The notes below the pieces were generated by a model. It worked only from the letters and a program-made list of their open reading frames with translations, searched no databases and had not been told where the DNA came from. A program made the position numbers and the translations under genes. DNA of 64,000 nt from Candidatus Palauibacter polyketidifaciens (lineage in GTDB: Bacteria; Gemmatimonadota; Gemmatimonadetes; Palauibacterales; Palauibacteraceae), in the NCBI RefSeq assembly GCF_947581785.1, contig NZ_CANPVO010000046.1:1-64000 (forward strand). Reading direction: 5' to 3'. Of the stretch, positions 6,774 to 64,000 are shown one piece after another. How positions within the stretch are numbered: position 1 is the first letter of the stretch; every line of letters starts with the position of its first letter.

Positions 6774-6784
6774 TCGTCGTACCG

Positions 6785-8170: not shown

Positions 8171-8275
8171 GGGACATGTCCAGTCGGGCGTTATCCGGGC
8201 AGGGGACTTCCGCCCCTGCATGAGTTCGACGATCCAACCTACCCCGTCGTCACGAGAGGCCACCAGACGCACGCC

Positions 8276-9232
8276 ATGCCGAACCTGAACGAAGTCATCC
8301 GGAGCACGCCCAAGGCGGAACTCCACATCCACGTCGAAGGCTCGCTGGAGCCCGGAATGATGTTCGACCTCGCCCGCCGGAACGGCGTGCCGCTCCCCTA
8401 CGGCAGCGTCGAGGAGGTCCGCCGGGCCTACTCGTTCGGCAACCTCCAGGAGTTTCTCGACCTCTACTACGAGGGGATGAACGTCCTCCGGACCGAGGAG
8501 GATTTCTTCGATCTCGCCGACGGCTACCTGCGGCGGGCGGCTGTGGACGGTGTCGTCCAAGTCGAGATGTTCTTCGATCCGCAGGCCCACACCGGACGCG
8601 GCGTGCCGCTGGTGACGCTGATGGACGGGCTCGAGCGGGCCATCGTCCGCTCACGGGAGCGGGGCGTGAGCGTCTCCCTCATCCTCTGTTTCCTGAGACA
8701 CCTCACCGAGAGGGAAGCGTTCGAGACGCTCGAGGCCGCGGAACCCTGGCGGGACCGGCTCCTCGGCGTGGGTCTCGACTCGAGCGAAGTCGGACACCCG
8801 CCCTCGAAGTTCGCGCGCGTGTTCGAGGCGGCGCGTGACATGGGCCTCCGGCTCGTCGCCCACGCGGGGGAGGAGGGTCCGCCGGAGTACGTATGGGAGG
8901 CGCTCGACATCCTCGGCGCGGAGCGCATCGACCACGGCAACCGGGCCCTCGAGGACGACGCCCTGGTCGCCCGACTGCGCGACGACCGCATCCCGCTCAC
9001 GGTATGCCCGCTGTCGAACCTCGAACTCCGCGTCGTGGAGGACCTCGCCGCCCACCCGATCAAGCGCATGCTGGACCTCGGCCTCCTCGCGACCGTGAAC
9101 TCCGACGACCCGGCCTACTTCGGCGGCTACATCAACGACAACTTCCGCCGGGTCGCCGCGGCCGTCGGCCTCACTGCCGACGACATCGAAACGCTCGCCC
9201 GCAACTCCCTTGAAGCCTCGTTCGTCGCTTGA
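8276..9232 (+). CDS. adenine deaminase-type aminohydrolase
   Basis: A 318-residue Zn-dependent purine deaminase. Motifs: KAELHIHVEGSLEP (HxH metal site, residues 14-20), LVAHAGEEG, ERIDHGNRALED, LTVCPLSNLEL and ATVNSDDPAYFGG. The EGSLEP and LDSSEVGHPPSKF wording is that of the adenine deaminase branch (yeast Aah1-like) rather than classical adenosine deaminase, so conversion of adenine to hypoxanthine is the likelier reaction. The start at 8276 precedes the conserved N-terminus; the Shine-Dalgarno sequence is weak. A purine permease and a Tsx-like nucleoside porin lie 8 kb downstream on the same strand, consistent with purine salvage. Confidence 0.88.
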   Translation: MPNLNEVIRSTPKAELHIHVEGSLEPGMMFDLARRNGVPLPYGSVEEVRRAYSFGNLQEFLDLYYEGMNVLRTEEDFFDLADGYLRRAAVDGVVQVEMFFDPQAHTGRGVPLVTLMDGLERAIVRSRERGVSVSLILCFLRHLTEREAFETLEAAEPWRDRLLGVGLDSSEVGHPPSKFARVFEAARDMGLRLVAHAGEEGPPEYVWEALDILGAERIDHGNRALEDDALVARLRDDRIPLTVCPLSNLELRVVEDLAAHPIKRMLDLGLLATVNSDDPAYFGGYINDNFRRVAAAVGLTADDIETLARNSLEASFVA

Positions 9233-9312
9233 CGCGACAGACGTTCGTGACAACCGTCGGGCTTGAACTCCACGCCGAGGAGTTGACTATCGCTTCGTCC
9301 GGATCCTGACGC

Positions 9313-12300
9313 GTGACTCTCAACGTAGTTCGAGCGCCGGCGGCGGCCCCGCTGTGGGAGGGGTGCGTCGACCGTTTTCTGGCACAGGCCGCCTCATCGG
9401 CCGAGGCGGGCGCGGGGGCTGGCGCGTGGATCTGGCTCAACCACCGGAGCCTGCGGGATCTCCTGTTCGAGGCCGCGCATGAACGCGGCCTCCCCGGCTG
9501 GCTCGATCCTCCCGTTACGCTGTTCGGAGAGCTGACCGACCGTTTCGGTATCCGGGAGAAGTCCGTCGGGCTCCTCACGCGCCGCCGGCTCGTGAGCCGG
9601 CACGCGGCGCGGCTGGGGCAGCGGATCCTCGGGCGGGAGCCCGGCCGCGGGGACGGCGTGATCCGCGGACACATGCTCGACCGGCTGTTCGGCGACCTGC
9701 TGCCGGAGGGCGTACCGCCGGACGAGTTGGAGCGGGCGCTGGCCCGGCTGGGCGGCGACGACTTCGCGCGCCGCCGCAACGACTGGGCTGTGGCCGTCTA
9801 CCGCGCGTATCTCGCTGCGCTTGAGAAGCGCGGGTTCCTCGACCGGCGCTCGGTGAACGCCCGCATCGCGGAGCGGATCGAGGCGGGAGGACTGGCGGCG
9901 GCGATCGGCGGCGCCCGGGAATTGCACGTGTACAGCATCGCGAGCCCTCGAACGCGCCGACGCATGCTTGAGGCCCTCTCCCGTCAGGAGGAGGTGGACG
10001 TCCATCTCTACCTCCCGTCCGAATCGGAGCCTGACCGCTTCTTTGACGAACTCGCCGACCGGACCGAGGTGATCGGCGTCCCCCGCGATGGCGGCGAAGA
10101 TGGTGGGGGCGGTGCCGGGGCCGGGGCCGGGCCGGTGACGGTACAGCCGGTTCCGGATGCCGCGCGGGAGATGGCCTGGGTGGCACGGCAGGTCAAGGAG
10201 ATTCTCGCGGCGGGTACCGCGGAACCGCATCGGATCGCCGTCGTCGCGAGGTCGGGTCGCGAGAACACGCATCGCGCGTACCGGGCGCTGCGGCGGGCGG
10301 GCGTCTCCGCGACGGCTCGCATCCGGACGCCGCTGGACGAGGTCCCGGCGCTCAGAGCGCTCCTCCTCGTGCTGCGGGGCGTCGGGCGGAACTGGGACTA
10401 CCGGTCTCTGCGCGCCCTCCTCGCGCACCCCTACTTCGACACCCGCGTCGATCTGCGCAGCATCGACGCCATCGCGGCGCTCCGGCGCGTGGTGGGGCTC
10501 GAGAGCTGGACCGGTGCCCTCGAGCAGTTGCGTCCGCTCGTCGAGAACAAGGCGCGCGAGGTCCGCGGACGGGGGCTCTTCCTCGATCGTGTGGAGAAGG
10601 ACATCGAGGCCTTTGGCGCCTTGCGGGAGGTGCTCGATCCGCTCGCCGACGCCCGCTCCGAGGCGGACTGGATCGATCTCACGCTCGCGCTCCTCAGGGA
10701 GGATCGCGGCGTGTTCCGGCTGAGGCGCCGCGTGTGCGACCCGGTCGAGGAACGGTGGGAGGTCGTGCGCTCCGACCAGCGCGGAATCCTTCTCCTGGAA
10801 CGACTGCTGCGGGAGTGGAGGGAGCTCGACCACCCGGACGACCCGCTCCCACCGGCGGGGTGGCACGCGCTGCTCGGCAAGCTGTTGCAGGCGAACGAAC
10901 TCGTCCTCTCGACTCCCGGGCAGAAGGGCGTCCAGGTGCTGGAGGCGCACGACGCGGCGCTCGTGCCCTTCGCCCATACCTTCGTCGTGCATGCGAACGA
11001 CCGCGAGTTCCCCCGCGCCGGGGGCGCCACGGGCGTGTTCACGGACACGGAGCGCCGCCGCCTCGCAGCTCTCGGGTTGCCGCTGGCCCACCGGGACGAG
11101 ACGCTGCGCCGCGAGCGGGGCCTATGGCGCGCGGTCACGCAGCAGGCCGGCCCGGTCTGCATCAGCTACCGCACCACGGACGCGGGCGGCACGCCGCTCC
11201 TTCCGTCGCTCATGGTCCCGAGTCACGAGGACGCCGCTGAGCTGCCCCGGATCCGTCGCCCCTCGGACGAGCTCGACCCCGTGACCCCGGCCGAGGCGGA
11301 CCGGCGGGCCGCCTTCGCGATCCACAGGGCTCTCGGGGTTCCGGACCCGACGGAACGGCCGCGAATCGCGCCCGCCCGCCCGGAACGCGTCGCGCGTGCG
11401 ATCGTGGCGGCGGCGGCCGAGATCCACCGCGGTCCGGGACTCGAGCGCTATCCCGGATTCCTCCTTCCGGCGCCATCGCCGGGCCCGGCGATGGCCGTGC
11501 ACCCGGCCTTTCGGCCGAATCCATGGAACGGCCACCTGCGCGATCCGGATGTGCTCCGGGAACTGGAGCGCCGCTTCCACGACGACTATCGATGGTCCGC
11601 CGGCCAACTCGAGGCCTACGCCCGGTCTCCCTTCACCTTTCTCGTCGAACGCGTGCTCTGGCTGGAAGGCGTGGAGGAGGCGGAGGAGGAGACGACGCCC
11701 CTCACCTTCGGCAGCGTCGCGCATGAGATCCTCGAACGCTTCTACGCCGAGTTCATGGGGAGGCTTCCCGTCGCCCTGGAGGGGTCGGTCGAGGACCGCC
11801 TCGCGGAGATCTCCGCTGAAGTCTGTGCCGAGCGCGCGGAGAAGGGGGAGTGGCTCGGCGTCGCCAGCCTGTGGGAGCAGACCCGGGAGGGGATCGTCGC
11901 CGCCGTCCGCAACTACATCGAGTGGGAACTCGGACACATGGCCAGGAAGGGCGAGTGTCCCATCGAGACCGAGGTCGGGTTCGGCTTCGACGACGAGCGT
12001 GCGATGCTCGCGGGCACCGACATCCGCGGCCGCGCGGCCCGCCTGCGCATCTGCGGCCGCATCGACCGGCTCGACCGGGACGCGGGCGGGACCGGGGTAT
12101 TTCACGTCCTCGACTACAAGAGCGGCAAGCCCCCGCCGGCGCCGAGATTCGATGACGCGACCGCCCTGCAGGGGGTGCTCTACGCGCAGGTGATGGCCGA
12201 CCGGGGCTACGCGATGGGCAGCTGCCGGTACCGGTCCATCAGGAGTCCCGGGAGTCCTCTCAACGGAGGGCTGGTCAGATTCGGAGAGGAACGGTACGAC

Positions 12301-46135: not shown

Positions 46136-47311
46136 CTACCAGGAGCGTGACGCTTCGTCGTGGAGCGTGGTGGGCAAGCTGTAGGACTGTTCGAAATCGC
46201 CTACGTTGGAGATGTCGAGCATCTCCATGTAGTCGTAGCCTTGGTCGAGTTTGTGGAATCCCGGAATCCACTCCAGTGCCGCCCTCCTCAACCGGTGCTT
46301 CAACCACAGCAGGGGAACCTGCGGGACCTTCCCGGATGGGGGAAACAGGAACTGGTCGGCCAGCTCGTCTCCGACCAGTTCCCGGCAAACCTGGTAGATG
46401 AACGTGGCGAACGGCCGGCGTTCCTTGGGATCCTTTACACCCAGCAGGAGCGGGGCACTGTTTACGATGCTGTTCGCCATGATGATGGCGTCGTCGTCCG
46501 GGATGGGCTCGCACAGCATCCCGATCTCGAATCTGCGGCGCGCCACGTCATAATCCTCGAAGAGGAGCGCCTCCGGGACGCCCATGATCCAGGCGGTGTA
46601 TCTCCACACATGGACGTAGCCTTCCCATTCCATGTCGCTGAATTTTGCGCCGAGGCGCTTGGCGTGCTGCAGGAGACGCGCCGAGAAAGTCGTGGAGGCG
46701 AGCATGATGTGAGCCGCACTGAGGGGCATGCCGTGAGCCGCCGCGTCCCATTCGTCCGAAGCCTCGAGCAACATCCTGGACTGTGCATGCACGAGTCGGA
46801 TTCGAAGCGTCAGCCTCCAGCCATCCCCGCCCGGTTCCATCCCGCCCGGGAGATACTGGTCGGCGAGGTGCAGCAGGTTCTGGCGAAGGCGGCGAACCCC
46901 GTTCTGCGTGATGCGCCCCCGGATCCTGAAGGACTTGCTGATCAGCGTCGAAAAGCCCTCGACGATCGCGGCCCCGGCCAGGGCTGCCGGAATGATGTTG
47001 GAATTGCGGATGAAGCCGCGCGTAGCCGCCTGGGCGAGGTCCGGATCGTACCAGTCCGGAACGACGGATACCTCGGCCACCAGTTCCCTGAGAGAGTCCG
47101 GGAGACCATCGGGCAACCGGAACGGATCCCGCAGGGCGGACGCTATGAGCGCGTGTACCTCGCCGGGGGCACAGGACGCCGCAAGATCCTCGACGACCCG
47201 ATCGGCAAGGGGATCTCCGAGCGTGGTATGACGGATGTAATCGTCCGCAAGCCGGGAATCGATGGCCCGCGCGGCCTCGTACCCGGGAACGTAGCTGGAC
47301 GGAATCCTCAT
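46136..47311 (-). CDS. DUF2236 / MpaB-type oxygenase-like protein
   Basis: A 391-residue protein of the family that includes latex-clearing protein and MpaB haem oxygenases: SSYVPGYEAARAIDSRLADDYIRHTTLGDPLAD at the N-terminus and WEGYVHVWRYTAWIMGVPEALL in the core, with a His/Arg pattern fitting haem binding. The ATG at 47311 starts next to this conserved part; a TTG at 47341 would add ten residues but overlaps a direct repeat. It is divergent from an RND permease gene. Enzymatic role unproven. Confidence 0.8.
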   Translation of the reverse strand: MRIPSSYVPGYEAARAIDSRLADDYIRHTTLGDPLADRVVEDLAASCAPGEVHALIASALRDPFRLPDGLPDSLRELVAEVSVVPDWYDPDLAQAATRGFIRNSNIIPAALAGAAIVEGFSTLISKSFRIRGRITQNGVRRLRQNLLHLADQYLPGGMEPGGDGWRLTLRIRLVHAQSRMLLEASDEWDAAAHGMPLSAAHIMLASTTFSARLLQHAKRLGAKFSDMEWEGYVHVWRYTAWIMGVPEALLFEDYDVARRRFEIGMLCEPIPDDDAIIMANSIVNSAPLLLGVKDPKERRPFATFIYQVCRELVGDELADQFLFPPSGKVPQVPLLWLKHRLRRAALEWIPGFHKLDQGYDYMEMLDISNVGDFEQSYSLPTTLHDEASRSW

Positions 47312-47365: not shown

Positions 47366-47548
47366 GAAGAGAATACGTTCGGACAACGAATGGCAAAAGT
47401 TTCGGGGACATGACGCCCGGGATCCGTCCGCCCGGCGCTCTGGCGAATCGGTCGCGCGCGGCGTAAACCGTTAGGCCTGCGAGCGTCGACAGTCAGGCCT
47501 GCGAGCGTTGGCTGAGGGGAGGTGGGACACATCACGGAAGAGCGCCGT

Positions 47549-50500
47549 GTGAGTGACGACGGTCACTTCGACCGAAGCAGTGTCCGGGGCCCCATCGGCT
47601 TCATGGCGAAGAACGGCATCGCCGCAAACGTGGTCATGCTGTTCCTCGTCCTCGCCGGCCTGGCCTCGGCCCGGAACCTGGTCCAGGAAGTCCTGCCCGA
47701 TTTTTCCCTGGACCGCGTCCAGATCGTCGTACCCTATCCCGGTGCGGCTCCCGAGGAGGTCGAGGAATCCATCGTCCGCCGGATCGAGGAGCAGATCCGG
47801 GCGGTGGACGGCCTGAGCCGGGTGGAAGCCACCGCGTCCGAGGGGCTCGCGTCGGTGATTGCGGAGTTCACCTCGGGAACGGACGTCAACCGCGCCCTCA
47901 ACGAGGTGAAGGCCGAAGTCGACCGCATTCCGACCTTCCCCGCCGCCGCCGAACGGCCCGAGATACGGGAGATCACGAGTCGGCAGAGCGTCCTTCGTCT
48001 CCTCGTGTACGGCGATGTCCCGGAGCGCACGCTCAAGGAGCTGGCGTACGGCATCGAGGAGGGCCTCTCCGCCCTTCCCGAGGTGTCGCTGGCCGAGATC
48101 AGCGGCGCCCGTCCGTATGAGATCTCGATCGAGGTGCCCCAGAGACGGCTCCGCGCCCTCGGTCTGACTCTGGACGACATCGCGTTTGCGGTGCGGCAGA
48201 GTTCGCTCGAACTGTCCGCCGGCCGGGTATCCACCAGTGGCGAGGACATCCTGGTTCGCACGCTGGGGCAGAACTACGAGCAGGTGGATTTTGAGGAGAT
48301 CATCCTCCTCGGCCGTCCGGACGGCACGTCGGTGCGGCTCGGCGAGGTCGCGACGGTGCGGGACGGCTTCGCCGACACCGATCTGAGCGTGCGCTACAAC
48401 GGGCAGACCGCGGTTCGGGTCGATGTCTACCGGACCTCCGATGAGCAGGTGCTGGACATCGCCGAAGCCGTAAAGCGGTATCTCGACATCGAAGTCGTGC
48501 CGGCCCTGCCCGAAGGCGTCTCGGTGGACCTGTGGAAGGATGATTCGGAGGAAGTCAGCGGGCGTCTCGGCCTCATGACGGAGAACGCTCTGATCGGGTT
48601 CGCGCTCGTCTTCGTGGCGCTGGCGCTCTTCCTGGAGATCCGACTCGCCATTTGGGTGGCCGTGGGTTTGGCCGTCTCCTTCATGGGCGCGTTCCTCGTG
48701 ATGGGCTTCCTGGGCATCTCGATCAACATGTTCTCGCTGATGGCGCTCGTGCTGGCGCTGGGCATCGTCGTGGACGACGCGATCGTCGTTGGAGAGAGCA
48801 TCTTCGCGGAGAGAGAGCGGGGATACCGGGGACTTGCGGCCGCCATCCGCGGCACGCGCCGCGTCAGCACTCCCGTCATATTCTCGGTTCTCACGACGAT
48901 CACGGCCTTCGCCGCGCTGCTGAACGCCCCCGGCCCGCAGGGAGAACTCGGCCGCGGGATTCCACTCGTGGTGATCGCGGTGCTCGTGATCTCGCTGATG
49001 GAATCGCTGCTCGTTCTCCCGAACCACCTCTCCCACCTGGCGGCCCCCGGCCGCGTGCGGAGGTCCGGCGCCGCCCATCGGATGCTGGAGCGGGCCCAGG
49101 GTGCGGTTGACCGGACCATGAAGCGAATCGCGGACGGACCCCTCGACCGCGGGCTCCGCGTTGCGACGGAGCAGCCCTCCATCATCCTCGCCGCGGCGGC
49201 CGGTCTGCTCGTGATCTCGATGGGGACGGTGGCGTCGGGCATCGTACCCAACCAGTTCATCACCCCGATCGAGGGCGATGTCGTCTCGGCGAACCTGGAG
49301 ATGCCGACGGGGACCCCGGCCGAGCGCACCGCCCGGATCGTCGCGGAAATCGAAGCCGCGGGACACCGGGCCGTGGCCCGCCTCGCGGAGGATGAGGCTG
49401 GAGGCGAGGATCCGCTGGGGTTCGACGTCGCCGTCACCGTGGGCGAGTTGGCGGCGCTGTACGATCCTCTCGGCGGGGACGCGGTGGAGGCGGCTCGAGG
49501 CCACCTCGGCACGGTGCAGTTCAAGCTCCACGACTGGAACAGCCGGGGCATCGCCGCGTCCACCTTTGAACGCGTGTGGCGGGAGGAGGTCGGCGTCGCG
49601 GCCGAAGCGAAATCGCTCTCGATCTCATCGAACCTTCTGGGTCTGGGGCTGCCCGTTCACTACGAACTGTCCCATCCGGATCCGGATCGCCTGGAGGCTA
49701 TTGCGGGTGAATTCGCGGCTGAACTGACGGCCATGGAGGGGACCTTCGACGTTCGGAGCAACCTCGATGAAGGGTTTCGGGAGCTTCAGTTGGAGTTGAA
49801 TCCGGAGGGCCGCTCCCTGAACCTGACGCTCGACCGCTTCGCGACGCAGGTGCGCTCGGCCTTTTTCGGGACGGAAGCGCTCAGGGTGCCTCGGGGGCGC
49901 GAAGACATGCGCGTGTGGGTCCGGCTTCCCGAGGAGGAGCGTAACTCGGCGGCCGACGTCGAGAACTACCTCGTCCGCACGCCGGGGGGCGAAGTGCCGC
50001 TTGGTCAGATCGCGTCCGCCGGATTTTCCCGCTCGTCAGCCGCCATCCACCGGGTCGACGGACGCCGCGCCGTGACGATCACCGCGGACGTGGATCCGCG
50101 CATCGCCACTGGCCAGCAGGTGAACGCCAAGCTGGACAACGAAGTCCTCGCGCGACTGACGGGCGAGAACCCGGATCTCGCCTACACGTACGGCGGTCAG
50201 AGGAAGGAGCAGGATCACGCGATCTCCGTGCTGGGCCGGTCGCTCATTCTCGCTCTCCTCATCATGTACAGCCTGATGGCGATCCCGTTCGGCTCGTACA
50301 CGCAGCCCCTCATCATCATGGCCGCCGTTCCGCTCGGCGCGATCGGCGCGCTCGCCGGCCACATGCTGCTCGGTCTCAGTTGGGGACTGTGGTCGCTGTA
50401 CGGACTCGTCGGCGTCTTCGGCGTGGTCGTGAACGACTCGCTCATGATGATCCGGTTCATCAACGACCTCAGGGACTCCGGCCTCGAGCCCGCGGATGCG

Positions 50501-50746
50501 GTCATCAGCGGGGCCAAGGAGAGATTCCGGGCAATCATGCTCACGTCGATTACCACATTCCTGGGCGTGGCCCCGCTGGTTTTCGAGACGAGCACGTACG
50601 CTCAGCACCTCGTTCCGCTGGCGACCTCCGTCGGCTTCGGCGTGTTCATCGCTACGATCCTCCTCATGGTCGTCGTGCCCGCGCTGGTGATGACGCAGTA
50701 CAACCTCGAGGCGCGGCGGGAACGCTGGCGGCTGGCGCGCGCCTGA
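47549..50746 (+). CDS. RND efflux permease, copy 1
   Basis: A 1065-residue HAE-type RND pump. Twelve predicted helices with two large periplasmic loops; TM4 has LALGIVVDDAIVVGE with the proton-relay Asp pair, and the C-terminal half repeats the fold (VVNDSLMMIRFINDL). It should export hydrophobic compounds using proton flow. Such pumps need a periplasmic adapter and outer-membrane channel; neither is encoded nearby. The GTG at 47549 has GGAAGAG at 6 nt; a GTG at 47522 is an alternative. The squalene synthase-like gene converges 27 nt past its end. Confidence 0.93.
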   Translation: MSDDGHFDRSSVRGPIGFMAKNGIAANVVMLFLVLAGLASARNLVQEVLPDFSLDRVQIVVPYPGAAPEEVEESIVRRIEEQIRAVDGLSRVEATASEGLASVIAEFTSGTDVNRALNEVKAEVDRIPTFPAAAERPEIREITSRQSVLRLLVYGDVPERTLKELAYGIEEGLSALPEVSLAEISGARPYEISIEVPQRRLRALGLTLDDIAFAVRQSSLELSAGRVSTSGEDILVRTLGQNYEQVDFEEIILLGRPDGTSVRLGEVATVRDGFADTDLSVRYNGQTAVRVDVYRTSDEQVLDIAEAVKRYLDIEVVPALPEGVSVDLWKDDSEEVSGRLGLMTENALIGFALVFVALALFLEIRLAIWVAVGLAVSFMGAFLVMGFLGISINMFSLMALVLALGIVVDDAIVVGESIFAERERGYRGLAAAIRGTRRVSTPVIFSVLTTITAFAALLNAPGPQGELGRGIPLVVIAVLVISLMESLLVLPNHLSHLAAPGRVRRSGAAHRMLERAQGAVDRTMKRIADGPLDRGLRVATEQPSIILAAAAGLLVISMGTVASGIVPNQFITPIEGDVVSANLEMPTGTPAERTARIVAEIEAAGHRAVARLAEDEAGGEDPLGFDVAVTVGELAALYDPLGGDAVEAARGHLGTVQFKLHDWNSRGIAASTFERVWREEVGVAAEAKSLSISSNLLGLGLPVHYELSHPDPDRLEAIAGEFAAELTAMEGTFDVRSNLDEGFRELQLELNPEGRSLNLTLDRFATQVRSAFFGTEALRVPRGREDMRVWVRLPEEERNSAADVENYLVRTPGGEVPLGQIASAGFSRSSAAIHRVDGRRAVTITADVDPRIATGQQVNAKLDNEVLARLTGENPDLAYTYGGQRKEQDHAISVLGRSLILALLIMYSLMAIPFGSYTQPLIIMAAVPLGAIGALAGHMLLGLSWGLWSLYGLVGVFGVVVNDSLMMIRFINDLRDSGLEPADAVISGAKERFRAIMLTSITTFLGVAPLVFETSTYAQHLVPLATSVGFGVFIATILLMVVVPALVMTQYNLEARRERWRLARA

Positions 50747-50773: not shown

Positions 50774-51745
50774 TCAGGCGCCCCGGGCGGCGAGCCGCCG
50801 GCAGTACCGCGCGATCCAGCGATTGGAGAAGCCGAAGAGCTTCGCGCGGCGCGTGATCGCGAGGACCTCCCGCCGGGACATCTTCGTCTCCCGGTCCAGC
50901 ACCTCCGGATTCGTGCGGCTGATGGCCAGGGTCCGCACGGCGAAGAGGAGCGGGAGCAGGCAGAAGAGGCGCACCCGGTGGTACCGTCGTGGGATCATCC
51001 GCATGTAGCTCCGCGCCGCCGCCAGGTGGCGGTCGGCCTTCTCCACGAGTCGCTCGAGCACGGTCATCGCCGCCGCGTGGTTCGCGGGCTCGAACAGTTC
51101 GCGGGGATCCATGCCGTCGGGGAGGAAGGACGCGGGCACGTACACCCAGCCGCGATGCCGGTCTTCGTGCAGCCCCCTGATCACGTTGACTGTCTGCAGC
51201 GCGAGGCCGAACTCCCGTCCCAACGCCATCATTCGGGCATGGTCCCTCCCGACGCCCGGCAACCGATGGACGAACAGTTCCGTCAGCAGATGGCCCACCC
51301 GCCCCGCGACCTCGTGCATGTAGTCGTCCAGATCCTCCTCGGTCTCGAACTTCGACCCCCGCTCCGTCCACCGCGCCATCCCGGCGCTGGATTCCCGCAC
51401 TCGGCGCACGACGATCTCCCGGGCCTCGGGCGCCAGACGGTCGAGTCCCTCCAGAACGCGCGCCGTGTGCCGGGCCACGGACGCGTCCGGGGTGTCTTCC
51501 GCGGCTTCTCCCAGGCGATCGATGAGCGCCGCGCGACCGGGACCTCCGTCGAGCACGCGCCGCCACTCTTCCAGCAGGAAGACCTTCTCGTCCCCCGCGA
51601 TTTCCTGGTTGTCCTCCAGGTAGTCGGAGACGCGCAACAGCAGGTAGGCCACGGTGATCTCGCCCCGCAGCGGGTGCGGGAGGATCTCGATGCCGACCGC
51701 AAACGTGCGGCTCGCACGCACGAGAAGTTCGTGAAGGGTGGTCAT
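50774..51745 (-). CDS. squalene/phytoene synthase-like protein
   Basis: A 323-residue head-to-head prenyl synthase fold. SDYLEDNQEIAGD has the first Asp-rich motif. The second reads NVIRGLHEDRHRGWVYVP, where canonical enzymes have RDxxED, so one Asp is replaced by Gly. It may make a squalene- or phytoene-type product or a related condensation, or may have lost the first half-reaction. The ATG forms an ATGA overlap with the stop of the broken M24-like gene. The longer frame upstream is a shadow of that gene. A FAD enzyme of the amine oxidase/desaturase type is 4 kb away. Confidence 0.85.
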   Translation of the reverse strand: MTTLHELLVRASRTFAVGIEILPHPLRGEITVAYLLLRVSDYLEDNQEIAGDEKVFLLEEWRRVLDGGPGRAALIDRLGEAAEDTPDASVARHTARVLEGLDRLAPEAREIVVRRVRESSAGMARWTERGSKFETEEDLDDYMHEVAGRVGHLLTELFVHRLPGVGRDHARMMALGREFGLALQTVNVIRGLHEDRHRGWVYVPASFLPDGMDPRELFEPANHAAAMTVLERLVEKADRHLAAARSYMRMIPRRYHRVRLFCLLPLLFAVRTLAISRTNPEVLDRETKMSRREVLAITRRAKLFGFSNRWIARYCRRLAARGA

Positions 51746-55549: not shown

Positions 55550-55579
55550 ACGTTTCGGCGGGAAGCCTGCCGGCGCCAT

Positions 55580-55600
55580 CTACCATGATGTTGATGGTAG
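55580..55600. repeat. 7-bp perfect inverted repeat in a convergent gap
   Basis: CTACCAT and ATGGTAG around 7 nt, in the 198-nt gap between the PorV-like gene and the convergent FAD enzyme gene. It could form a hairpin acting as a bidirectional end signal; there is no T-run. Nothing else is clear in the gap. Confidence 0.5.
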
Positions 55601-55747
55601 AACGGACCTTGAATACCCTCTCCACCGTCGGCGACACGATTCCACTCGACTCCGCCAGCACGGTTCCCCCGGCGCGCTCACGTTTCGTCCGCCCTTCCGC
55701 GGTCATTTCTCCTGCCTGCGTTGCGTCATCGAAACCGGGAACGGTGG

Positions 55748-57130
55748 CTACCGTCCTGCCGGCTGCGAGAAAAAGGCCGCGCAGTCTTCAGCCGTATCAA
55801 TGCCGCTTCGCAAGGCGCCGTTGGTCGAGGGAACCCCCATGTACTCGCCCGCGAGAAACAGCCCCCTGACGTCGGCGAGGTCTTGCCCGCGCATCCGATC
55901 CAGCGCCGTCATCATGCCGCCGGGTGCCAGACACACGGCTTCGTCCCAGCGATGGACGTGGGTGAACAGCGGCCGGGCCATCGTCGGGAAGTAGTTGCGG
56001 ATCTCCGCGAGAACCTGCTGCGACGCCTCTTCGTCGCTCAATGCGAACAGTTCCTCGGCCCGCCTCCCGATCACGAGCGCGTCCACGAGCGCCCTCCCCT
56101 CCGGCACGGTCTCCGGCGCCATCACCGCGGAGTCGCTCATGCCCGTCATCAGCGCTCCCGTCTCCCTCGGGAAGGCGACGGCGTACCAGTCGGTGGGGAA
56201 CGGGCTCGAATCGACGCCGAAGAACACGCGGCAACACTTGGAATAGGTGACCCGGCGCAAGACGTCGCGGATGCCGGATGGGAGCCGGGGGATGATCTCG
56301 AGGGCCTTGGTGGCGGTCGTTGCGCAAACGACCGCATCGGCCTCGATAAAGCCCGCTTCCGTGACCACGCCACGCACCGCACCGTCCTCGAGAACGATCC
56401 GGTCCACGGGCGTGGATACCCTGATACCACCACCTCCCTCGGCACAGGCCCGCGCAAGGGCGTTCACGAAAACGCCGGGACCACCATCGGGCAAGCAGGG
56501 CCAGGCGCCGCCGTTCAGGCCAAAATCCCAGGCGGCTACCATCGCGTAGGCCGCGCCAACCTCCTCGGGATACCCGAGCGTGTAGCTGCTCAGGTTCGGC
56601 TGGATAAACCTCTCGAGGACCTCGGTGCCGAAATTGGACTCAAAAAACTCAGTAGTGCTGACACCCGTATCGAGGTCAAGTATGCGCCGATGATCGTCGA
56701 AGCTCAGGTCGTTGGCTCGCGCTTTCAGCATCTTGACGAACCGGAGCGCCTGCCGGAGTCCCCTGGGCGACAGCAAACGGAACTGCAGAAACGTCCCGGC
56801 CGTCTTCAACTGACTTGCCGGTGATCCGCCACCATAGAAACCATGAAACCTGCCGCTGCGGTACACGCCGCCGTTTATCGGAACGGGGGTTCGCTTTAAC
56901 GAAACGCCAAGTTCGCTCGCCAACTGCCTGATCGTGCCGTACGACTCGAGGAAGACGTTCGCCCCGACATCCATATGGAAGCCATCAATCTGCTTTCCCG
57001 TGACGCGGCCTCCGATATCAGGAGAAGCCTCGAAGACGGTGACGTCCAATCCGTGTTTGCGGAGAGTGTATGCGGCGCCCAATCCTGCCATTCCGGCACC
57101 AACCACAACGACGTTCCGATTCCCGCTCAT
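55748..57130 (-). CDS. FAD-dependent amine oxidase-like enzyme
   Basis: A 460-residue flavoenzyme. NVVVVGAGMAGLGAAYTLRKHGLDVTVFEASPDIGGRVTG is the FAD-binding N-terminus with the GG doublet, and GLFLAGEYMGVPSTNGALRSG the C-terminal FAD motif. The layout is shared by protoporphyrinogen oxidases, amine oxidases and phytoene desaturases, which oxidise C-C or C-N bonds. Which one is not decidable, though a squalene synthase-like gene is 4 kb away. No signal peptide. An HTH regulator lies 180 nt upstream on the same strand. The intergenic region and start of this gene are found again, decayed, at the right edge. Confidence 0.88.
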   Translation of the reverse strand: MSGNRNVVVVGAGMAGLGAAYTLRKHGLDVTVFEASPDIGGRVTGKQIDGFHMDVGANVFLESYGTIRQLASELGVSLKRTPVPINGGVYRSGRFHGFYGGGSPASQLKTAGTFLQFRLLSPRGLRQALRFVKMLKARANDLSFDDHRRILDLDTGVSTTEFFESNFGTEVLERFIQPNLSSYTLGYPEEVGAAYAMVAAWDFGLNGGAWPCLPDGGPGVFVNALARACAEGGGGIRVSTPVDRIVLEDGAVRGVVTEAGFIEADAVVCATTATKALEIIPRLPSGIRDVLRRVTYSKCCRVFFGVDSSPFPTDWYAVAFPRETGALMTGMSDSAVMAPETVPEGRALVDALVIGRRAEELFALSDEEASQQVLAEIRNYFPTMARPLFTHVHRWDEAVCLAPGGMMTALDRMRGQDLADVRGLFLAGEYMGVPSTNGALRSGIDTAEDCAAFFSQPAGR

Positions 57131-57320
57131 ATGTCACCCATATAGATACTTCAGCTTGATGCACGGGCTTCTTTGGAAAGGAAGCTGTTGTAACTTCGGG
57201 TGATGCCGGAACGAAGGAAGGGACGACTTTTATGAATATGGAACGAAGGACGAAGGAAGGGGGCGATTCTTATTGAGGGCTCGGAGCGGCCATGGAACCT
57301 TCGGCCCAGGTCAGTTGCCG
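57126..57320. repeat. dispersed repeat, copy A (intact locus)
   Basis: This region, from the FAD enzyme start through the intergenic gap to the HTH regulator stop, aligns with 63711-63890. Shared blocks include GGAAGGGACG, TTTTATGAAT, TGGAAC, GGGCGATTCTTATTG and CAGGTCAGTTGC. It is AT-richer than its surroundings and probably holds the FAD enzyme promoter. No other gene is seen in the 180-nt gap. Confidence 0.8.
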
Positions 57321-58096
57321 ACTGTCTCCCGATCTGGTCCGCTCAGCAACGGCCGTACGAACTTTTCGTTGAACGCGGCGAAGAGCTGGTCCGGGTCCAT
57401 ACACTCAAGTTCCCGCAGCGTGCATCCGGGCCATCGCTGGCTTTTTCGCGTCAGCGTCGGGCGGGCGAAGCGGACGATCCTGCTCACGCTCTCCCAGTTC
57501 AAGCCCGACAGGTGAAGCTGATGGGCGCGCAGCAGCACGAGACCGCCGAGGAACCGGTTCAGCGTCGTCGCGCGCGCAGTGGCGTCGGCGAACTGCTGGG
57601 AGAGCGTGACCGGAGAGCAGCGGATGGCACGGGCTAGTTCGCCGGCGCAGCGTACGGGCGTACCCTGGGCTTTGCGGAGGCTATGGGCCAGGCCCGTGCG
57701 AAGGAGGCGGGGGAGGTCCGACCGGTGTATGACACCGGCCAGATGAGACAGTCCCGATGTGCTACGCGCTCGGACGATCTCATCGGGGAGTTGCGTCTCG
57801 AGTTCGTCGAACCAGACGAGCGCGGACACCCGCACATTGCTCAACCAGCGCGCAACCGCCGAGTCGCGATCCGTCACCAGGATGACCGGAACCAACGGCA
57901 GCGTCCGCTCGATCTCCCTGAGAAGCTCGACCGCCTCGGGCATAACCCAGCGGCGATATGCGATGATCAGACAGGTGGTGTCGCCGCCTTCGGCCGTGGC
58001 GACGGCAGCCGCATCTTGCACTACGGCGACAGGGCCGTCCACGGCGGCCTTGACCTGCGCGGCATCACCGATCGAATGGCTGAAGACGCGGATCAC
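57311..58096 (-). CDS. HTH regulator with an N-terminal receiver-like domain
   Basis: A 261-residue protein. The first 115 residues alternate strand and helix like a degenerate receiver (GGDTTCLIIAYRRWV, TLPLVPVILVTDRDSAV) without a clear phospho-Asp. The C-terminal half is AraC-like: VRCAGELARAIRCSPVTLSQQFADATARATTLNRFLGGLVLLRA then a second helix-turn-helix. It likely controls the FAD enzyme and perhaps the P450/RND operon on the same strand. The start is the only one available, a GTG with no Shine-Dalgarno sequence. Confidence 0.72.
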   Translation of the reverse strand: MIRVFSHSIGDAAQVKAAVDGPVAVVQDAAAVATAEGGDTTCLIIAYRRWVMPEAVELLREIERTLPLVPVILVTDRDSAVARWLSNVRVSALVWFDELETQLPDEIVRARSTSGLSHLAGVIHRSDLPRLLRTGLAHSLRKAQGTPVRCAGELARAIRCSPVTLSQQFADATARATTLNRFLGGLVLLRAHQLHLSGLNWESVSRIVRFARPTLTRKSQRWPGCTLRELECMDPDQLFAAFNEKFVRPLLSGPDRETVGN

Positions 58097-58475
58097 TTCA
58101 GGGGGTCCGTAACCGGCGACATGTGGTGCCGCTCGTCGGGACGGCTCTCATCCGTGGGCCCGGGCCCTCGGCGCCTCACGCCCGACGAACTCGCAATCGA
58201 TGACGATACGCCCGTCCGCGCGTCACGTCTCCATGGCTCCATCAGTGGCAATCCGCCCGTCGGAGGGACATGTGCATAAAATCCAATTCCCTAATTCTTG
58301 CCACTCGAAGTGCCTCCGGCAACCACCAAAACGGGGGAATGGCGGCTTGTATGTGATCGTAGCGCGACAAAAAGGTATAATTTGACGACGATTACGCGAT
58401 ATGCTGGAGAATTGCGGAGGTGCGGTGCGAGCCGGACCCGATCGAAGAGCACGTCGTTGCTGGTCGGCGGCGCGG
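58097..58475. other. 379-nt intergenic region, AT-rich in part
   Basis: This gap lies between the P450 stop and the HTH regulator start, both minus strand. A perfect TATAAT is at 58376-58381 on the plus strand, with no -35 at a good distance. The segment 58133-58165 recurs at the right end of the window. Small frames here do not look coding. A promoter for the regulator is expected within it but I could not place one. Confidence 0.45.
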
Positions 58476-59828
58476 TCACGGCCTGCGCTGCCGGACGGTG
58501 ACGGTGATCGGCCCTTTGACGCCGATCCCGTTGCTGAACTGCTTCGGAGCGTCGCTCGAAGCCGGTTCGAGGCGCAGGCGCTGAGCGAAGCTGGCGTGGG
58601 CGAACACGAACATCCTCTCCGCAAACCCGCCGAACGGGCAGCTCCGGTCCGCGACGCCGAACGGAATGTAGCCGTGTTCAGGGCATCCGCGATCCCTCGG
58701 CCCCGGTTCCTCCAGCCAGCGTTCCGGTCGGAAGTCCTCCGGGCGGTCCCAGTAGTCGGTTCTGCGGTGCAGCACACGCGCCCCGACGTTGGTGACGGTC
58801 CCCTTCGGAACGAGATGGCCGCCTACGATGCGGTCCTCGCGCGGGCGCACCGGCAGCAGGACATAGGCCGGCGGGGCCAGTCGAACCGTCTCCTGAAAGA
58901 CGGCCCGGGCGTAGGACAGCTTCTCGAAGTCGGCGACTTCGACGGGGCGGTCTCCCAGGACCTCGTCAACCTCCTGCTCCAGGCGGCGTTGCGCTGCGGG
59001 TGCCTGGGCGAGGAAATGGACACCGTAGGTCATCGCGGCGGCGGGCGCGTCCGGGTAGCCGCAGAGGAAGGCGAGCGCCTCGTCGCGGATCTCCTTGTCG
59101 GTGAGGTGGGACGCGCCGTGGACGCCCTCGTCCCTCGCCCGGACGTAGTGGGCGACCATGTTGTCGACGGGCCGGGCCTGATCCTTCGCCCGTCGGATGG
59201 CTTCTTGAACTACATCGTCCATCGCCCTGAGCCAGCGCCGAATCGGAATGTAGAACGGCGAGTACTGCTTCGTGAGCACGGATGCTCCCGGGAAGAGCGC
59301 CAGAAAGAGATCCACCTTCACGGCCTTCAGAACGTTCAGCTGAACGGACGTCGGGACGGCCAGGTCCCGGCCGACGACCGCGTCGAGCAGCGTCCGCGAG
59401 GTGAAGACGTCGAACTCCTCTTTAATGTCGATCGTGGTTCCCGGCCGGCACCTCTGGCGCATGGCCAGGGCACCGTCCCTGATGATGTCGCCGTAGCCGC
59501 GCATGCTGCTCTCGTCGAGCCCCGCCAACATCAGCGAACGTCGCTGTTCGTGCTCCTGGTCGAGGAGCGTAGCGAGACAGCTCTCGAGCATCGGGCCGGT
59601 CGGAAACCACTTCAGGAAGTGGGGCTCCTGGACGTCCGGTACGAGACGGGCGTCGAACACGGCGCAGCACTTGAGAAACGGAAGCTCGTAGAACACGATG
59701 TCGCCGTATTCCCGGTGGAGTTCTTCCATGAACCCGGGGAAGTCGGACTGTCGCCGGAGCAGATTGCCGAATCGGCGCCCCTTGGGACCAGGGGGCAGGC
59801 TCGGCGATTCCGAATTGGTTGATGTCAT
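58476..59828 (-). CDS. atypical cytochrome P450
   Basis: A 450-residue P450. ExxR is ETVRLAPP (about 314), then PERWLEE, and the haem region reads FGVADRSCPFGGFAE (about 389). The Cys ligand is present, but the usual Gly residues of FGxGxRxCxG are Ala and Phe. The I-helix reads ALAFLCGYPDAPAAAMTYG (about 251) where the A-G-x-(D/E)-T-T oxygen-activating pair is expected, so normal O2 activation is doubtful. It could act as an isomerase, dehydratase or peroxygenase-like enzyme. GAGAGG precedes the ATG. The RND gene ends 17 nt upstream, same strand. Confidence 0.88.
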   Translation of the reverse strand: MTSTNSESPSLPPGPKGRRFGNLLRRQSDFPGFMEELHREYGDIVFYELPFLKCCAVFDARLVPDVQEPHFLKWFPTGPMLESCLATLLDQEHEQRRSLMLAGLDESSMRGYGDIIRDGALAMRQRCRPGTTIDIKEEFDVFTSRTLLDAVVGRDLAVPTSVQLNVLKAVKVDLFLALFPGASVLTKQYSPFYIPIRRWLRAMDDVVQEAIRRAKDQARPVDNMVAHYVRARDEGVHGASHLTDKEIRDEALAFLCGYPDAPAAAMTYGVHFLAQAPAAQRRLEQEVDEVLGDRPVEVADFEKLSYARAVFQETVRLAPPAYVLLPVRPREDRIVGGHLVPKGTVTNVGARVLHRRTDYWDRPEDFRPERWLEEPGPRDRGCPEHGYIPFGVADRSCPFGGFAERMFVFAHASFAQRLRLEPASSDAPKQFSNGIGVKGPITVTVRQRRP

Positions 59829-59845
59829 CGCCACCTCTCCTCGAT

Positions 59846-62800
59846 CTAGTCGTCTGCAACTGCTCTCGGTGCAACGCGGATTTCTGCTACGGACCGCAGG
59901 GAGTTGACGACGGTGGACCGTGTGCGCCGCGTCGTGGCGCGGAGGTGCAGGGCCGTCAATGCAGGCACGACAAGCATTAGGATGCCCGTCGCGAAGACGA
60001 TGCCGAAGCCGATGGACGCGGCGAAGGGGATGAGAAACTGCGCCTGAATGGCCGATTCGAGCAGGAGCGGCGTGAAGGCCAGGAACGTCGTCGCCGACGT
60101 GAGAAAGATCGGACGGAAACGGGCCTTCGCCCCATCGATAATCGCGTTCCTGGCGGGAACCCCATCCCGCAGTTTCCTGTTGATGAAGTCGACCATGACC
60201 AAGGAATCGTTCACAACGACCCCGTTGAGGCCGAGGATTCCCATCATGGAAACGATGCTCAGGTCGATGCCGATGATCAGATGACCGAGGATGGCGCCGA
60301 TGAGGCCGAAGGGAATGACGGCCATGATGATGAGAGGCTTCGTGTATGACCCCAGAGGAATCGCGAGTAGCGCAAAGATGACCAGCAGCGCAAGAACGAA
60401 GCCTCTCCCCAGGGCGTCCGTGGACTCGACCTGTTGCTGCTGTTCGCCTCCGAACGCATAGGTCAGTCCGGGGTTGGCCCCGGCGAGTTCCGGGAGAATC
60501 GTGTTCGCCAGGATCGCGGTGACCTCGGCGCCGGTCGTCACGTTCGTGTCCACGTCGGCGGTGACCGTGACCGTGCGCTGACCGTTCTTCCGCCGAATCG
60601 ATGAGGGTGATATCTCCATCCTCACCGTGGCGACGCGGCTCAGGGGCACCGTGAAGCCGGTGGGCGTGCGGACCGTGTACCGTTCGACGTCGGCCGCCGT
60701 GTCCCGCTCGTCCGATGGAAGGCGCACGTAGACGCGGACATCCTCCGGGCCCCGCTGGAGGCGCAGCGCCTCGGTGCCGAAGAACGCCGCTCGCACCTGT
60801 CGGGCGAGCTCGCCCAGAGTGAGACCCAGCGTTTGCGCCTCGGGTCGCAGTTCGATCTGAATCTCCTGGAAGCCGGCCGAATGATCCGACTGGATGTCGA
60901 ACACGCCCTGCAACTCCCGAAGACGCTCGACCGCGGAGTCGCCGATGGGACCCAGCCGCTCAGGGTCCGGATGCGAGAGGTCGATATGGACAGGGAGGCC
61001 AAGGTTGAGCAGCTCGGCCGTGAACCTGAGGCCTCGGGCCTCGGGCACGGCGCCGACTTCTTCCCGCCAATGCTGAAGAAAGGTGCTGGCGCTGATGTCC
61101 CGCTGCTGGGCACCAAGCAGCTTGAACTCCACGCTGCCGATGTCGCCACCGGGTTTCAGATTCGGCTCCTGAACCAGTCCGCCTCCCCGTTCCAGTCCCG
61201 TCTTCATGCCGACCGCAAGCGTGACCGCGCTCAGGAGGGGCTCCGCCTTCTCGGGTCGACCGCTCGACAGCCGGTCGATGGTCCGGCGGCCGGCCGCTTC
61301 GAGTTCCTCCGCGATCTCTGTCGTGCGCCATGCGGGCGTTCCCACCGGCATCTCGAGGTTCGCGGTCACGATGTCGCCCTCCACGGGCTCGGAGAGGATC
61401 ACGTCGATGATTCCCGCCGGCACCAGCGACACGCACAGGATGACCACGCCGACGGCGGAGGCCAGAACCAGCTCGGGCCGACCGGTGGCGAGGCGCAGCC
61501 CCCGGTCCAGGGGGCCGGAGAGGAACCACTGGAACCCGTCGTTGACACGTTTCTGGGTCCAGGCAAGGAAACGATCCAGGGAATTGGAAGGCGTCCATTC
61601 CGGGCCCGGGAGATGGGACAGGTGGTTCGGCAGCACGAGAAGCGACTCCACCAGCGAAAGGAGGAGTACGGAGATCACGATGATGGGAAACGCGCCCATC
61701 ACCTCTCCGAAACCGCCGGGAAGGAAGAGCAGCGGAGAGAACGCCGCCACGGACGTCAGGACCGCGAAGATCAGGGGCTTCTTGATTTTCTGAGTGCCTC
61801 TGATCGCGGCGACGACCCCGCTGGCGCCTTTCTGGCGTTCCAGATGCACGTGCTCGGCGACGACGATCGCGTCGTCCACCATGATGCCGATGGCCAGGAC
61901 GAAGGCGAACATCGAGATGGCGTTGATGGAAACGTCGAGGACGAGCATCACGGCCAAGGCACCCGTGGCTGCAACAGCGATCCCGAGCGCGACCCAAAGA
62001 GCCAGCCGGATGTTCAGGAAGAGCGTCAGCGCAACAAAGACGAGCAGCAGCCCCAGGAAACCGTTCTTGACCAGAACGTAGACCTGTTCCCCGTAGATTT
62101 CCGCGTCGTTGTTCCAGATGGCGACCTCGACGCCGGTGGGCAGCGAAGGGAGGATCTCCCGCTCCAGGTGGTGCACCACCGCGTCCGCGACGTCCAGGAC
62201 CTTCTCGCCGGCAGCCCGGTACACTTCGACGAAAGCCGCCGGCTGGCCGTTGTAGCGCGTAATCAGGTGAACGTCCTGAAAGCCGTCCCGCACGTCGGCC
62301 AGGTCGCCCAGACGTACGAGGGTCCCGTCGCCCTTGCTCAGGACGACGATCTCTTCGAAGTCGTACTCGCTGTAGCTCTGACCCGTCGTACGGACCCGCA
62401 TTTCGGCGCCGACCGTCTCGATGCTGCCTGCCGCGAGGTCGAGCGAGCCGTCGCGGACCGCGCCGGCGATGTCTTCCAGCGTCAGGCCGAGAGCTTGCAA
62501 CCTGTTCCGAGGCACTTCGACCGAGATCTCGTAGTCACGTACTCCTCGTGTTTCCACGTAGGAAACTTCGGGAAGCGAGGCGATCTGCTCCTCGGTACGG
62601 TATGCCAACTCCTTGAGAGCGCGCTCGGGAACGTCACCGTACAGGACCAGGCGGATCACGCTCTGACGGTTGGCGCGCTCTCGAACCTCGGGACGCTCGG
62701 CGCCTCCGGGAAATGACTGGATGCTGCCGACCGCGGCCTCGATGTCGTTCAACGCACGGTTGATGTCCGCACCCGTCTCGAGCACCGCCATGACGGACGC

Positions 62801-63088
62801 CATGCCCTCGGCCGCGACGGAGGTCACATCCTTCACGCCGTTGACCGTCCCGACCCGCTCCTCGATTTTCAGGATGATCGACTCCTCTACCTCGTGCGGA
62901 GTCGCGCCGGGATAGGGCACGGTGATTTCGATGTGGTTGGAAGAGGGAACTGGATACATCTCCTGCACGAGGCCGGGAAGCGAGGCGAGCCCCGCGGCCA
63001 AAATGAAGGCCATCAGGAGGTTGGCGGCCACCCCGTTTCGCGCCATGTAGGCGACGGCACCGCGCGGGTACGCGTCGTCGTTCTTCAC
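59846..63088 (-). CDS. RND efflux permease, copy 2
   Basis: A 1080-residue HAE-type RND pump, a paralogue of the one at 47.5 kb over its whole length (VAYMARNGVAANLLMAFIL matches IGFMAKNGIAANVVMLFLV). TM4 has IGIMVDDAIVVAEHV with the Asp pair. No adapter or outer-membrane channel gene lies nearby. The GTG start is 17 codons before the conserved region, with a weak Shine-Dalgarno sequence. Followed 17 nt later by the atypical P450; the second SRPBCC gene is divergent, 47 nt from its start. Export of the P450 product is plausible. Confidence 0.92.
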   Translation of the reverse strand: MKNDDAYPRGAVAYMARNGVAANLLMAFILAAGLASLPGLVQEMYPVPSSNHIEITVPYPGATPHEVEESIILKIEERVGTVNGVKDVTSVAAEGMASVMAVLETGADINRALNDIEAAVGSIQSFPGGAERPEVRERANRQSVIRLVLYGDVPERALKELAYRTEEQIASLPEVSYVETRGVRDYEISVEVPRNRLQALGLTLEDIAGAVRDGSLDLAAGSIETVGAEMRVRTTGQSYSEYDFEEIVVLSKGDGTLVRLGDLADVRDGFQDVHLITRYNGQPAAFVEVYRAAGEKVLDVADAVVHHLEREILPSLPTGVEVAIWNNDAEIYGEQVYVLVKNGFLGLLLVFVALTLFLNIRLALWVALGIAVAATGALAVMLVLDVSINAISMFAFVLAIGIMVDDAIVVAEHVHLERQKGASGVVAAIRGTQKIKKPLIFAVLTSVAAFSPLLFLPGGFGEVMGAFPIIVISVLLLSLVESLLVLPNHLSHLPGPEWTPSNSLDRFLAWTQKRVNDGFQWFLSGPLDRGLRLATGRPELVLASAVGVVILCVSLVPAGIIDVILSEPVEGDIVTANLEMPVGTPAWRTTEIAEELEAAGRRTIDRLSSGRPEKAEPLLSAVTLAVGMKTGLERGGGLVQEPNLKPGGDIGSVEFKLLGAQQRDISASTFLQHWREEVGAVPEARGLRFTAELLNLGLPVHIDLSHPDPERLGPIGDSAVERLRELQGVFDIQSDHSAGFQEIQIELRPEAQTLGLTLGELARQVRAAFFGTEALRLQRGPEDVRVYVRLPSDERDTAADVERYTVRTPTGFTVPLSRVATVRMEISPSSIRRKNGQRTVTVTADVDTNVTTGAEVTAILANTILPELAGANPGLTYAFGGEQQQQVESTDALGRGFVLALLVIFALLAIPLGSYTKPLIIMAVIPFGLIGAILGHLIIGIDLSIVSMMGILGLNGVVVNDSLVMVDFINRKLRDGVPARNAIIDGAKARFRPIFLTSATTFLAFTPLLLESAIQAQFLIPFAASIGFGIVFATGILMLVVPALTALHLRATTRRTRSTVVNSLRSVAEIRVAPRAVADD

Positions 63089-63135
63089 GAACCTGCGCCG
63101 TGCCTCTGTCCATCGGGACTGGAATCGGGAGCGCC

Positions 63136-63594
63136 ATGGAGCCGACGAAACGGAGTCTGACGATCAACGCCTCGTGCGGAACCGTGTTCCGCGCCGTTGC
63201 CGATCTGGGTCACTTTTCCAAAGCTGTGCCTCAAATCGATCGCATCGAAATCCTGTCCGAGAGCACCGCCGGCGTCGGAACGCGTTTCCGCGAGACGCGG
63301 CTCGTGCGGGGCAGGGAAACCGCATCCGAGCTCAGGGTGGCCGAACTCGTGGAGAACGAAAGGGTTCGGTACGTCTCGGACACCTTTGGTACTCGCTGGA
63401 ACAGCACGTTCACCGTCGCTCCGGCCGGCGACCGGACTCGGCTCACCATGGTGATCCAGGGGCGACCGTACAGGGTGCTGTCCAGGTTGGCGGCGCCCCT
63501 CATGAAGTTCCTCACCGCCAAGGCCGTTGCCGCCGACATGAAGGGCATCAAGGCATACGCGGAGAGCCTGGAGGAGTCTGCGGCGTCGGCGTGA
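63136..63594 (+). CDS. SRPBCC (START/Bet v1-like) protein, copy 2
   Basis: A 152-residue helix-grip protein, paralogue of the 38.5-kb gene: SLTINASCGTVFRAVADLGHFSKAVPQID, GVGTRFRETRLVRG, TRLTMVIQGRPYRVLSRLAAPLMKFL, and a C-terminal helix (GIKAYAESLEE). It should bind a hydrophobic ligand. The ATG at 63136 has GGGAG 4 nt upstream and fits the paralogue start; a GTG 36 nt earlier is less likely. Divergent from the RND gene, so the two may share control. Confidence 0.87.
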   Translation: MEPTKRSLTINASCGTVFRAVADLGHFSKAVPQIDRIEILSESTAGVGTRFRETRLVRGRETASELRVAELVENERVRYVSDTFGTRWNSTFTVAPAGDRTRLTMVIQGRPYRVLSRLAAPLMKFLTAKAVAADMKGIKAYAESLEESAASA

Positions 63595-63710
63595 GGGCCA
63601 GACGTCCGCTTCCTTCCTTACCTCCATGCGGCAGGGCCTTCGGACCCGACCATGATGATGCCGACAATGAGCCGGTCGGTTCTGCGACTCATTCGCTCGT
63701 TCGGTTTTCC

Positions 63711-63942
63711 GCTCATACGGTCACCATATTCGTCCTTGCTCTGAGGCACGGTTTCTCCAGGAAGGAAGCTCGATGGGATTGCTTCTGGAGGAAGGGACGG
63801 TTTTTATGAATTTGGAACAAAAACCGATGAGAGAGGGCGATTCTTATTGGGCGCTCGAGGCCGCTACACAGCTGCGGCGCAGGTCAGTTGCAACGTCGGG
63901 CCGCTCGGTGGGACGGCTCTCATCCGTTGGCCCCGGGCTGAC
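63711..63942. repeat. dispersed repeat, copy B (decayed locus)
   Basis: Aligns with 57126-57320, and its right part (63902-63940) with 58133-58165. On the minus strand it retains the first few codons of the FAD enzyme (ATGAGCGG, then AACCGAACG-like) and the last codon of the HTH regulator, but the regulator body is deleted and the FAD frame diverges at once. It is a deletion remnant of a second copy. No gene is seen in 63595-64000. Confidence 0.75.
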
Positions 63943-64000
63943 GGTAAGGAACTCGGTCCGAAGCCTCTCCGTTCGCGGATCAGCCCGATCAGCCGGGCTC

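Follow-up and report, generated by a model that had tools for sequence, protein, structure and literature searches.

The 64,000-nucleotide stretch of DNA from Candidatus Palauibacter polyketidifaciens that we analyzed as a whole (the window) carries near its end a three-gene cassette encoding a START-like protein, a dedicated RND permease, and a cytochrome P450 from a clade that has lost the threonine but kept the acid of the I-helix acid-alcohol pair. We read this cassette as a transferable module that oxygenates an isoprenoid lipid by substrate-assisted O2 activation and then exports it, a reading to which we give about an even chance when taken as a whole. The START-like (SRPBCC) protein would hand a hydrophobic substrate to the P450, the Thr-less P450 would oxidize the substrate so presented, and the dedicated RND permease would carry the product across the envelope. 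The substrate itself is likely an isoprenoid lipid such as a triterpenoid, an apocarotenoid, or a sterol-like molecule. The cassette and its genes are located as follows:

58462-63594, both strands: three-gene cassette SRPBCC-RND-P450, 84.4% identical in DNA over 5134 bp to positions 6279-11367 of a locus in another phylum (L062)
58476-59828, minus strand: Thr-less cytochrome P450 of 450 aa, with Asp260-Ala261-Pro262 in the I-helix, heme peptide FGVADRSCPF, and Cys397
59846-63088, minus strand: RND permease (ACR_tran) of 1080 aa, 17 nt upstream of the P450 gene
63136-63594, plus strand: SRPBCC/START-like lipid-binding protein (Polyketide_cyc2), divergent from the RND gene

The Thr-less P450 and its clade

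ORF calls and Pfam bore out the P450 coordinates, the gene order, and the 17-nt gap after the RND gene that had been described from the sequence, and the P450 start is an ATG at 59828 behind a good ribosome-binding site (GAGGAGAGG). The protein belongs to the P450 superfamily by its profile match (PF00067, E 3.6e-44), its predicted P450 fold, and the residues already listed in the original prediction, all of which are present (ExxR as E313 and R316, PERW, and the heme ligand Cys397). That prediction had further held that the acid-alcohol pair is missing from the I-helix, which proved right for the alcohol and wrong for the acid. Gap-free phmmer pairings of CGYPDAP with IAGHETS of CYP97A3 (LUT5) and FAGYETT of CYP3A4, both solved P450s, place Asp260 in register with the Glu/Asp of the canonical pair, with Ala261 standing in for the Thr, Pro262 next to it, and Tyr258 taking the place of the usual second I-helix Gly. 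A 106-sequence P450 alignment agrees, and a Thr in register, which the original prediction had named as evidence against itself, appeared in neither comparison. GYPDAP thus departs from the canonical monooxygenase motif [AG]Gx[DE][TS] in having the acid but not the alcohol.

The heme peptide FGVADRSCPF deviates from the canonical signature FxxGxRxCxG at both glycines, just as had been noted. The FxxG glycine is Ala393, a substitution specific to the window's species or lineage because the 85%-identical orthologue (L062) keeps Gly there. The CxG glycine is Phe399 in the window P450 as well as in the orthologue, where 90% or more of 64 relatives carry Gly. Among the 7 P450 matches in the window's genome, the one at 35.4 kb is an ordinary P450 (AGNETT, FGHGVHRCIG), again as anticipated. 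With models of terpene-oxidizing P450s (CYP170-type albaflavenone synthase and pentalenene oxygenase), the window P450 scored far under the cut-offs.

In a tree of 79 P450 rows computed without the motif columns, 39 sequences including the window P450 form a single Thr-less group (SH-aLRT 100). All 39 have the Asp, and Thr/Ser is absent from 37 of them, which carry Ala, Gly, Pro, or His instead, with Ser in the other 2; sister P450 groups show an acid or His followed by Thr/Ser, Asn being the single exception. As far as these sequences tell, loss of the Thr with retention of the Asp is therefore a trait of the whole clade. One clade member from a Gammaproteobacteria MAG (L078:9962-11257), lying at a contig end, has Phe in place of the heme-ligand Cys (PFGLGPHFFQGM) and may represent either an inactive enzyme or an error in the sequence.

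Low dN/dS values point to purifying selection on both the P450 gene (0.147) and the RND gene (0.130), and we rejected a P450 pseudogene given the open frame and a dN/dS of 0.15. An AlphaFold2 model built from a 64-sequence alignment and containing no heme has the canonical P450 fold (pLDDT 90.6, pTM 0.92) with the I-helix interrupted at residues 258-259; its closest solved folds are CYP184A1 (TM 0.86), CYP102A1, and CYP3A4 (TM range 0.80-0.86). By these measures (dN/dS 0.15, AlphaFold pLDDT 91), the P450 is a genuine gene under selection.

The loss of the Thr had been taken as a sign of chemistry other than ordinary monooxygenation, which our comparison does not support. The counter-example is P450eryF (CYP107A1), which has Ala at the same position and is a normal monooxygenase by way of a 5-OH group on its substrate (PMC10741444), so Thr loss alone would not reveal non-monooxygenase chemistry. 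In P450cam, by contrast, the Thr-to-Ala mutation T252A uncouples the enzyme cycle (PMC10750395), and sequence alone cannot decide between monooxygenation as in P450eryF and uncoupling as in this mutant. By analogy to P450eryF, O2 activation has probably been kept, with Asp260 and a substrate hydroxyl or an ordered water standing in for the Thr.

The P450 might instead be a peroxide-using or rearranging enzyme (a peroxygenase, hydroperoxide isomerase, or dehydratase) that processes a peroxide made by an MpaB/Lcp-like dioxygenase and activates no O2 of its own. The clade-wide Thr loss, the cysteine pocket changed by Phe399, and the translational coupling of an MpaB-type heme protein to the P450 in L062 all fit such an enzyme, and there is precedent in the CYP152 peroxygenases, which substitute the acid-alcohol pair; higher peroxygenase activity has been reported when this pair is altered (PMC10750395). 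Unlike in CYP152, however, the acid is kept in 39 of 39 clade members including the window P450 with its Asp260, and the CYP152 model gives no match to the window P450. CYP74 enzymes have an extended heme loop that the window P450 lacks, and Lcp-type enzymes cleave their substrates to carbonyls rather than to stable peroxides. We consider a peroxide-using enzyme unlikely and, because no clade member lacks the acid, favor substrate- or water-assisted proton delivery over peroxide chemistry with modest confidence.

A cassette shared across phyla

Scanning named genomes for relatives of the cassette revealed another assembly of the species in the window (L061, Gemmatimonadales MAG SB0661_bin_41) with an identical gene order and 99.6% identical DNA, which makes an assembly artifact unlikely. 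The close copy in L062 comes from a MAG named Holophagales (Acidobacteriota), and the match there stops at the outward-facing ends of the SRPBCC and P450 genes; the 47 bp between the SRPBCC and RND genes are conserved as a spacing as well. In L062, the start codon of an MpaB/Lcp-like gene overlaps the P450 stop codon (ATGA), genes for an outer-membrane factor (OMF) and a membrane-fusion protein (MFP) come next, and a second MpaB gene and an SQS/PSY gene lie nearby. Other genes on the L062 contig are 52-92% (several of them 84-92%) identical to a Thermoanaerobaculia MAG, and since the rest of the contig thus resembles Acidobacteriota, a mis-binned Gemmatimonadota contig is an unlikely explanation. 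No relatives of the cassette were found on viral contigs and plasmid P450s are just approximately 30% identical to the window P450, so we rejected carriage by a phage or plasmid.

The RND permease is a member of the HAE1/ACR_tran group (PF00873, E 2e-152, 509 bits, residues 19-1044), while its match to the HpnN hopanoid transporter models reaches only approximately 21 bits, where the cut-offs are 1100 and 752; identification as HpnN or BstA is therefore unsupported. Its description as an orphan pump held within the window's insertion, which contains no membrane-fusion or outer-membrane partner to complete a tripartite system, but not at the orthologous L062 locus, which has both. We assume export rather than internal placement of the product because of the HAE1-type homology and these MFP and OMF genes in L062. 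The cassette contains no redox partner.

Compared to four congeners, which lack the cassette genes at the same site, the window's genome carries an insertion of approximately 8.5 kb:

55553-64000: the part of the insertion inside the window; it continues to approximately 64049, 49 bp past the window
55748-57130, minus strand: FAD amine-oxidase/HpnE/CrtI-like oxidoreductase (PF01593), within the insertion
57311-58096, minus strand: 261-aa protein, regulator-like by eye, within the insertion
57112-57318, plus strand: left copy of a flank repeat, matching 63789-63891 over 104 bp at approximately 77% identity
63698-63936, plus strand: right copy of the flank repeat, equivalent to 57112-57318 joined directly to 58123-58164

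The insertion comprises the genes for the FAD oxidoreductase, the regulator-like protein, the P450, the RND permease, and the SRPBCC protein, and no other 8.5-kb segment on the contig has a GC content as low as its 64.0%. Two genomes (G014 and G007) match the window at 42-55.55 kb (86-95%) and, after approximately 20 bp, again from 64.05 kb, while the junction in G009 is 55552/64320. In G002, the same gap is filled by approximately 2.5 kb with an ABC-transporter-like gene (L211:13472-15937), which suggests an insertion hot spot. The 261-aa protein matches nothing in Pfam or NCBIfam, and the genome encodes two full-length paralogues of it (43-45%). The right flank repeat reproduces the borders of its gene without the coding region, beyond the far side of the cassette, and may be a scar of insertion or duplication. 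Although the flank repeats bracket the cassette, the full bracketed element has no second copy in the genome, and we do not claim a composite transposon.

In our best reading, the cassette was acquired horizontally by a Gemmatimonadota bacterium that probably lives as a symbiont in sponges. We infer a sponge origin of the MAG sets from record names (SB06xx, COS, RHO, and APA), and the COS and RHO labels fit sponge hosts named in PMC8163846. A cassette for putative lipid chemistry moves between phyla that probably have sponge hosts in common.

Linkage of RND permeases to oxygenases

The cassette landed beside resident genes that apparently belong to the same type of pathway (the first three below; the fourth is a further gene of the window):

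46136-47311, minus strand: MpaB/Lcp-like heme protein (PF09995, E 1.5e-19), in genus-core DNA beside the insertion
47522-50746, plus strand: another RND permease of this subfamily (51% identity to the window cassette's), transcribed divergently from the MpaB gene
50774-51745, minus strand: squalene/phytoene-synthase-family protein (PF00494), the sole one in the genome
38487-38933, minus strand: second SRPBCC protein

The MpaB, SQS, and second RND genes lie in genus-core DNA, so that neighborhood is all that ties them to the pathway of the inserted cassette. Both MpaB genes that the window's genome contains lie at RND-oxygenase loci, as does its only SQS/PSY gene, which we take as a hint of an isoprenoid substrate. 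The SQS-like protein has an intact first Asp motif and a Gly for the first Asp of its second Asp-rich motif, and the search for a cyclase in the genome yielded a weak partial match and nothing more. Taken together, the START-like protein, the P450, MpaB, and the RND permease suggest the handling, oxidation, and movement of a hydrophobic isoprenoid, and further hints of this kind come from an SQS operon in L063 and the neighbors of a sister RND, both described below.

Adjacency of RND and P450 genes in other genomes, which the original prediction implied, is present in L061 and L062 and goes wider than proposed. Counting RNDs at least 50% identical to the window's once per locus, a P450, GPP34-P450 fusion, or MpaB-like gene lies within 1.5 kb at 24 of 33 loci, compared to 0 of 11 for more distant outgroup RNDs from the same genomes (Fisher p 2e-5, for a count that includes orthologues and not independent events); two of the 9 subfamily loci without an adjoining oxygenase are at contig ends. 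The association of P450 and RND genes is real, conserved, and recurrent, in line with the proposed link of product and exporter. An ordinary divergent monooxygenase next to an unrelated multidrug pump by chance is conceivable in a genome with 7 P450 matches and several RNDs, both being common genes. Yet a cassette that is 84% identical in DNA across phyla and ends at gene boundaries, the 24/33 versus 0/11 adjacency, and the 17-nt spacing on the same strand make such a coincidence very improbable.

Diverse arrangements recur among these loci. The P450 is fused to SRPBCC in L065 and to a sulfotransferase in a single 799-aa ORF near MpaB and CysDN genes (L055:9244-11643), and L063 has a P450-P450-SQS operon. 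Thr-less P450 pairs, tandem or divergent, occur beside MpaB, SRPBCC, and aldehyde dehydrogenase genes, and a Nitrospirales genome shows the order MpaB-sulfotransferase-P450-sulfotransferase-MFP-RND-CysDN. A GPP34 (Golgi phosphoprotein 3-like) domain is fused to a P450 at L057:11459-13486 (contig C6 of the window's genome, G000), an arrangement that recurs in many other genomes, and the sister RND on this contig (61% identical to the window's) adjoins this fusion, a sterol-methyltransferase-like protein, and a KshA-type Rieske oxygenase. Separately, a superlocus on G100 contig C25 (L169, L170, and L062) combines three subfamily RNDs, several P450/MpaB genes, a sulfotransferase, GSTs, and a ketosynthase; L172 (G103 contig C8) adds an ACP, an LpxL-like acyltransferase, and a ketosynthase and resembles an aryl-polyene-type biosynthetic cluster.

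These neighbors also bear on the idea of a self-protection or detoxification unit, in which the P450 would modify and the RND permease expel a toxic lipid or terpenoid from the host or neighbors. A mobile three-gene unit common to different phyla, an HAE1-type RND related to multidrug pumps, and GST genes adjoining sister RNDs would suit this role, but the recurrent biosynthesis-type neighbors (SQS-like, sulfotransferase with CysDN, ketosynthase/ACP, and sterol methyltransferase-like) and the P450 fusions to SRPBCC and sulfotransferase argue against it, so we regard detoxification as unlikely.

Returning to the oxygenate-and-export reading, unrelated bacteria from the same type of habitat have a close copy of the cassette as well as related pairings, which points to an undescribed route by which a terpene- or sterol-like lipid is oxidized and moved; in the open-access literature, we found no prior description of P450/RND/sterol clusters from sponge symbionts. 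More broadly and more tentatively, at less than an even chance, an undescribed system may be shared horizontally among bacterial symbionts, at a minimum those in Gemmatimonadota and Acidobacteriota, while looser relatives occur in Proteobacteria and Nitrospirota. In this system, the Thr-less P450 clade, MpaB/Lcp-like heme oxygenases, and START-like proteins together with the dedicated RND subfamily would oxidize a triterpenoid or sterol-like lipid and either export it or place it within the holobiont. An RND subfamily that travels with oxygenases could allow pump cargo to be predicted from neighbors, and a natural P450 clade with the acid but without the alcohol lets the long-standing question of which half O2 activation needs be tested on natural enzymes.

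Comparison with known systems

The companion MpaB proteins share with the MpaB/Lcp heme oxygenases their PF09995 membership and the proximal His, which in the window's protein is His175, aligned with His198 of Lcp. The distal Lys167 and Thr168 of Lcp are not conserved in the companion MpaB alignment and Arg164 is uncertain, and none of the tests made supports the character of a secreted rubber oxygenase like Lcp.

HpnN (hopanoid) and BstA (sterol) are transporters of the RND superfamily encoded beside triterpenoid genes (PMC10942540). The window's locus resembles them in placing RND permease genes beside isoprenoid-lipid enzymes, but its RND is ACR_tran/HAE1-like with the approximately 21-bit HpnN match, whereas BstA is assigned to the MMPL family.

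Among P450s, the nearest solved folds are of the CYP184A1/CYP102A1/CYP3A4 type, yet these are just 19-24% identical to the window P450. Wild-type CYP184A1, CYP102A1, and CYP3A4 keep the I-helix Thr. P450eryF is like the window P450 in keeping the acid and in having Ala where the I-helix Thr would stand, and it is an active monooxygenase. Unlike P450eryF, the window P450 has a Pro behind this Ala and carries Tyr258 and Phe399 in place of the I-helix and CxG glycines, and while P450eryF is the single exception in its family and of another subfamily, the window P450 belongs to an entire Thr-less clade.
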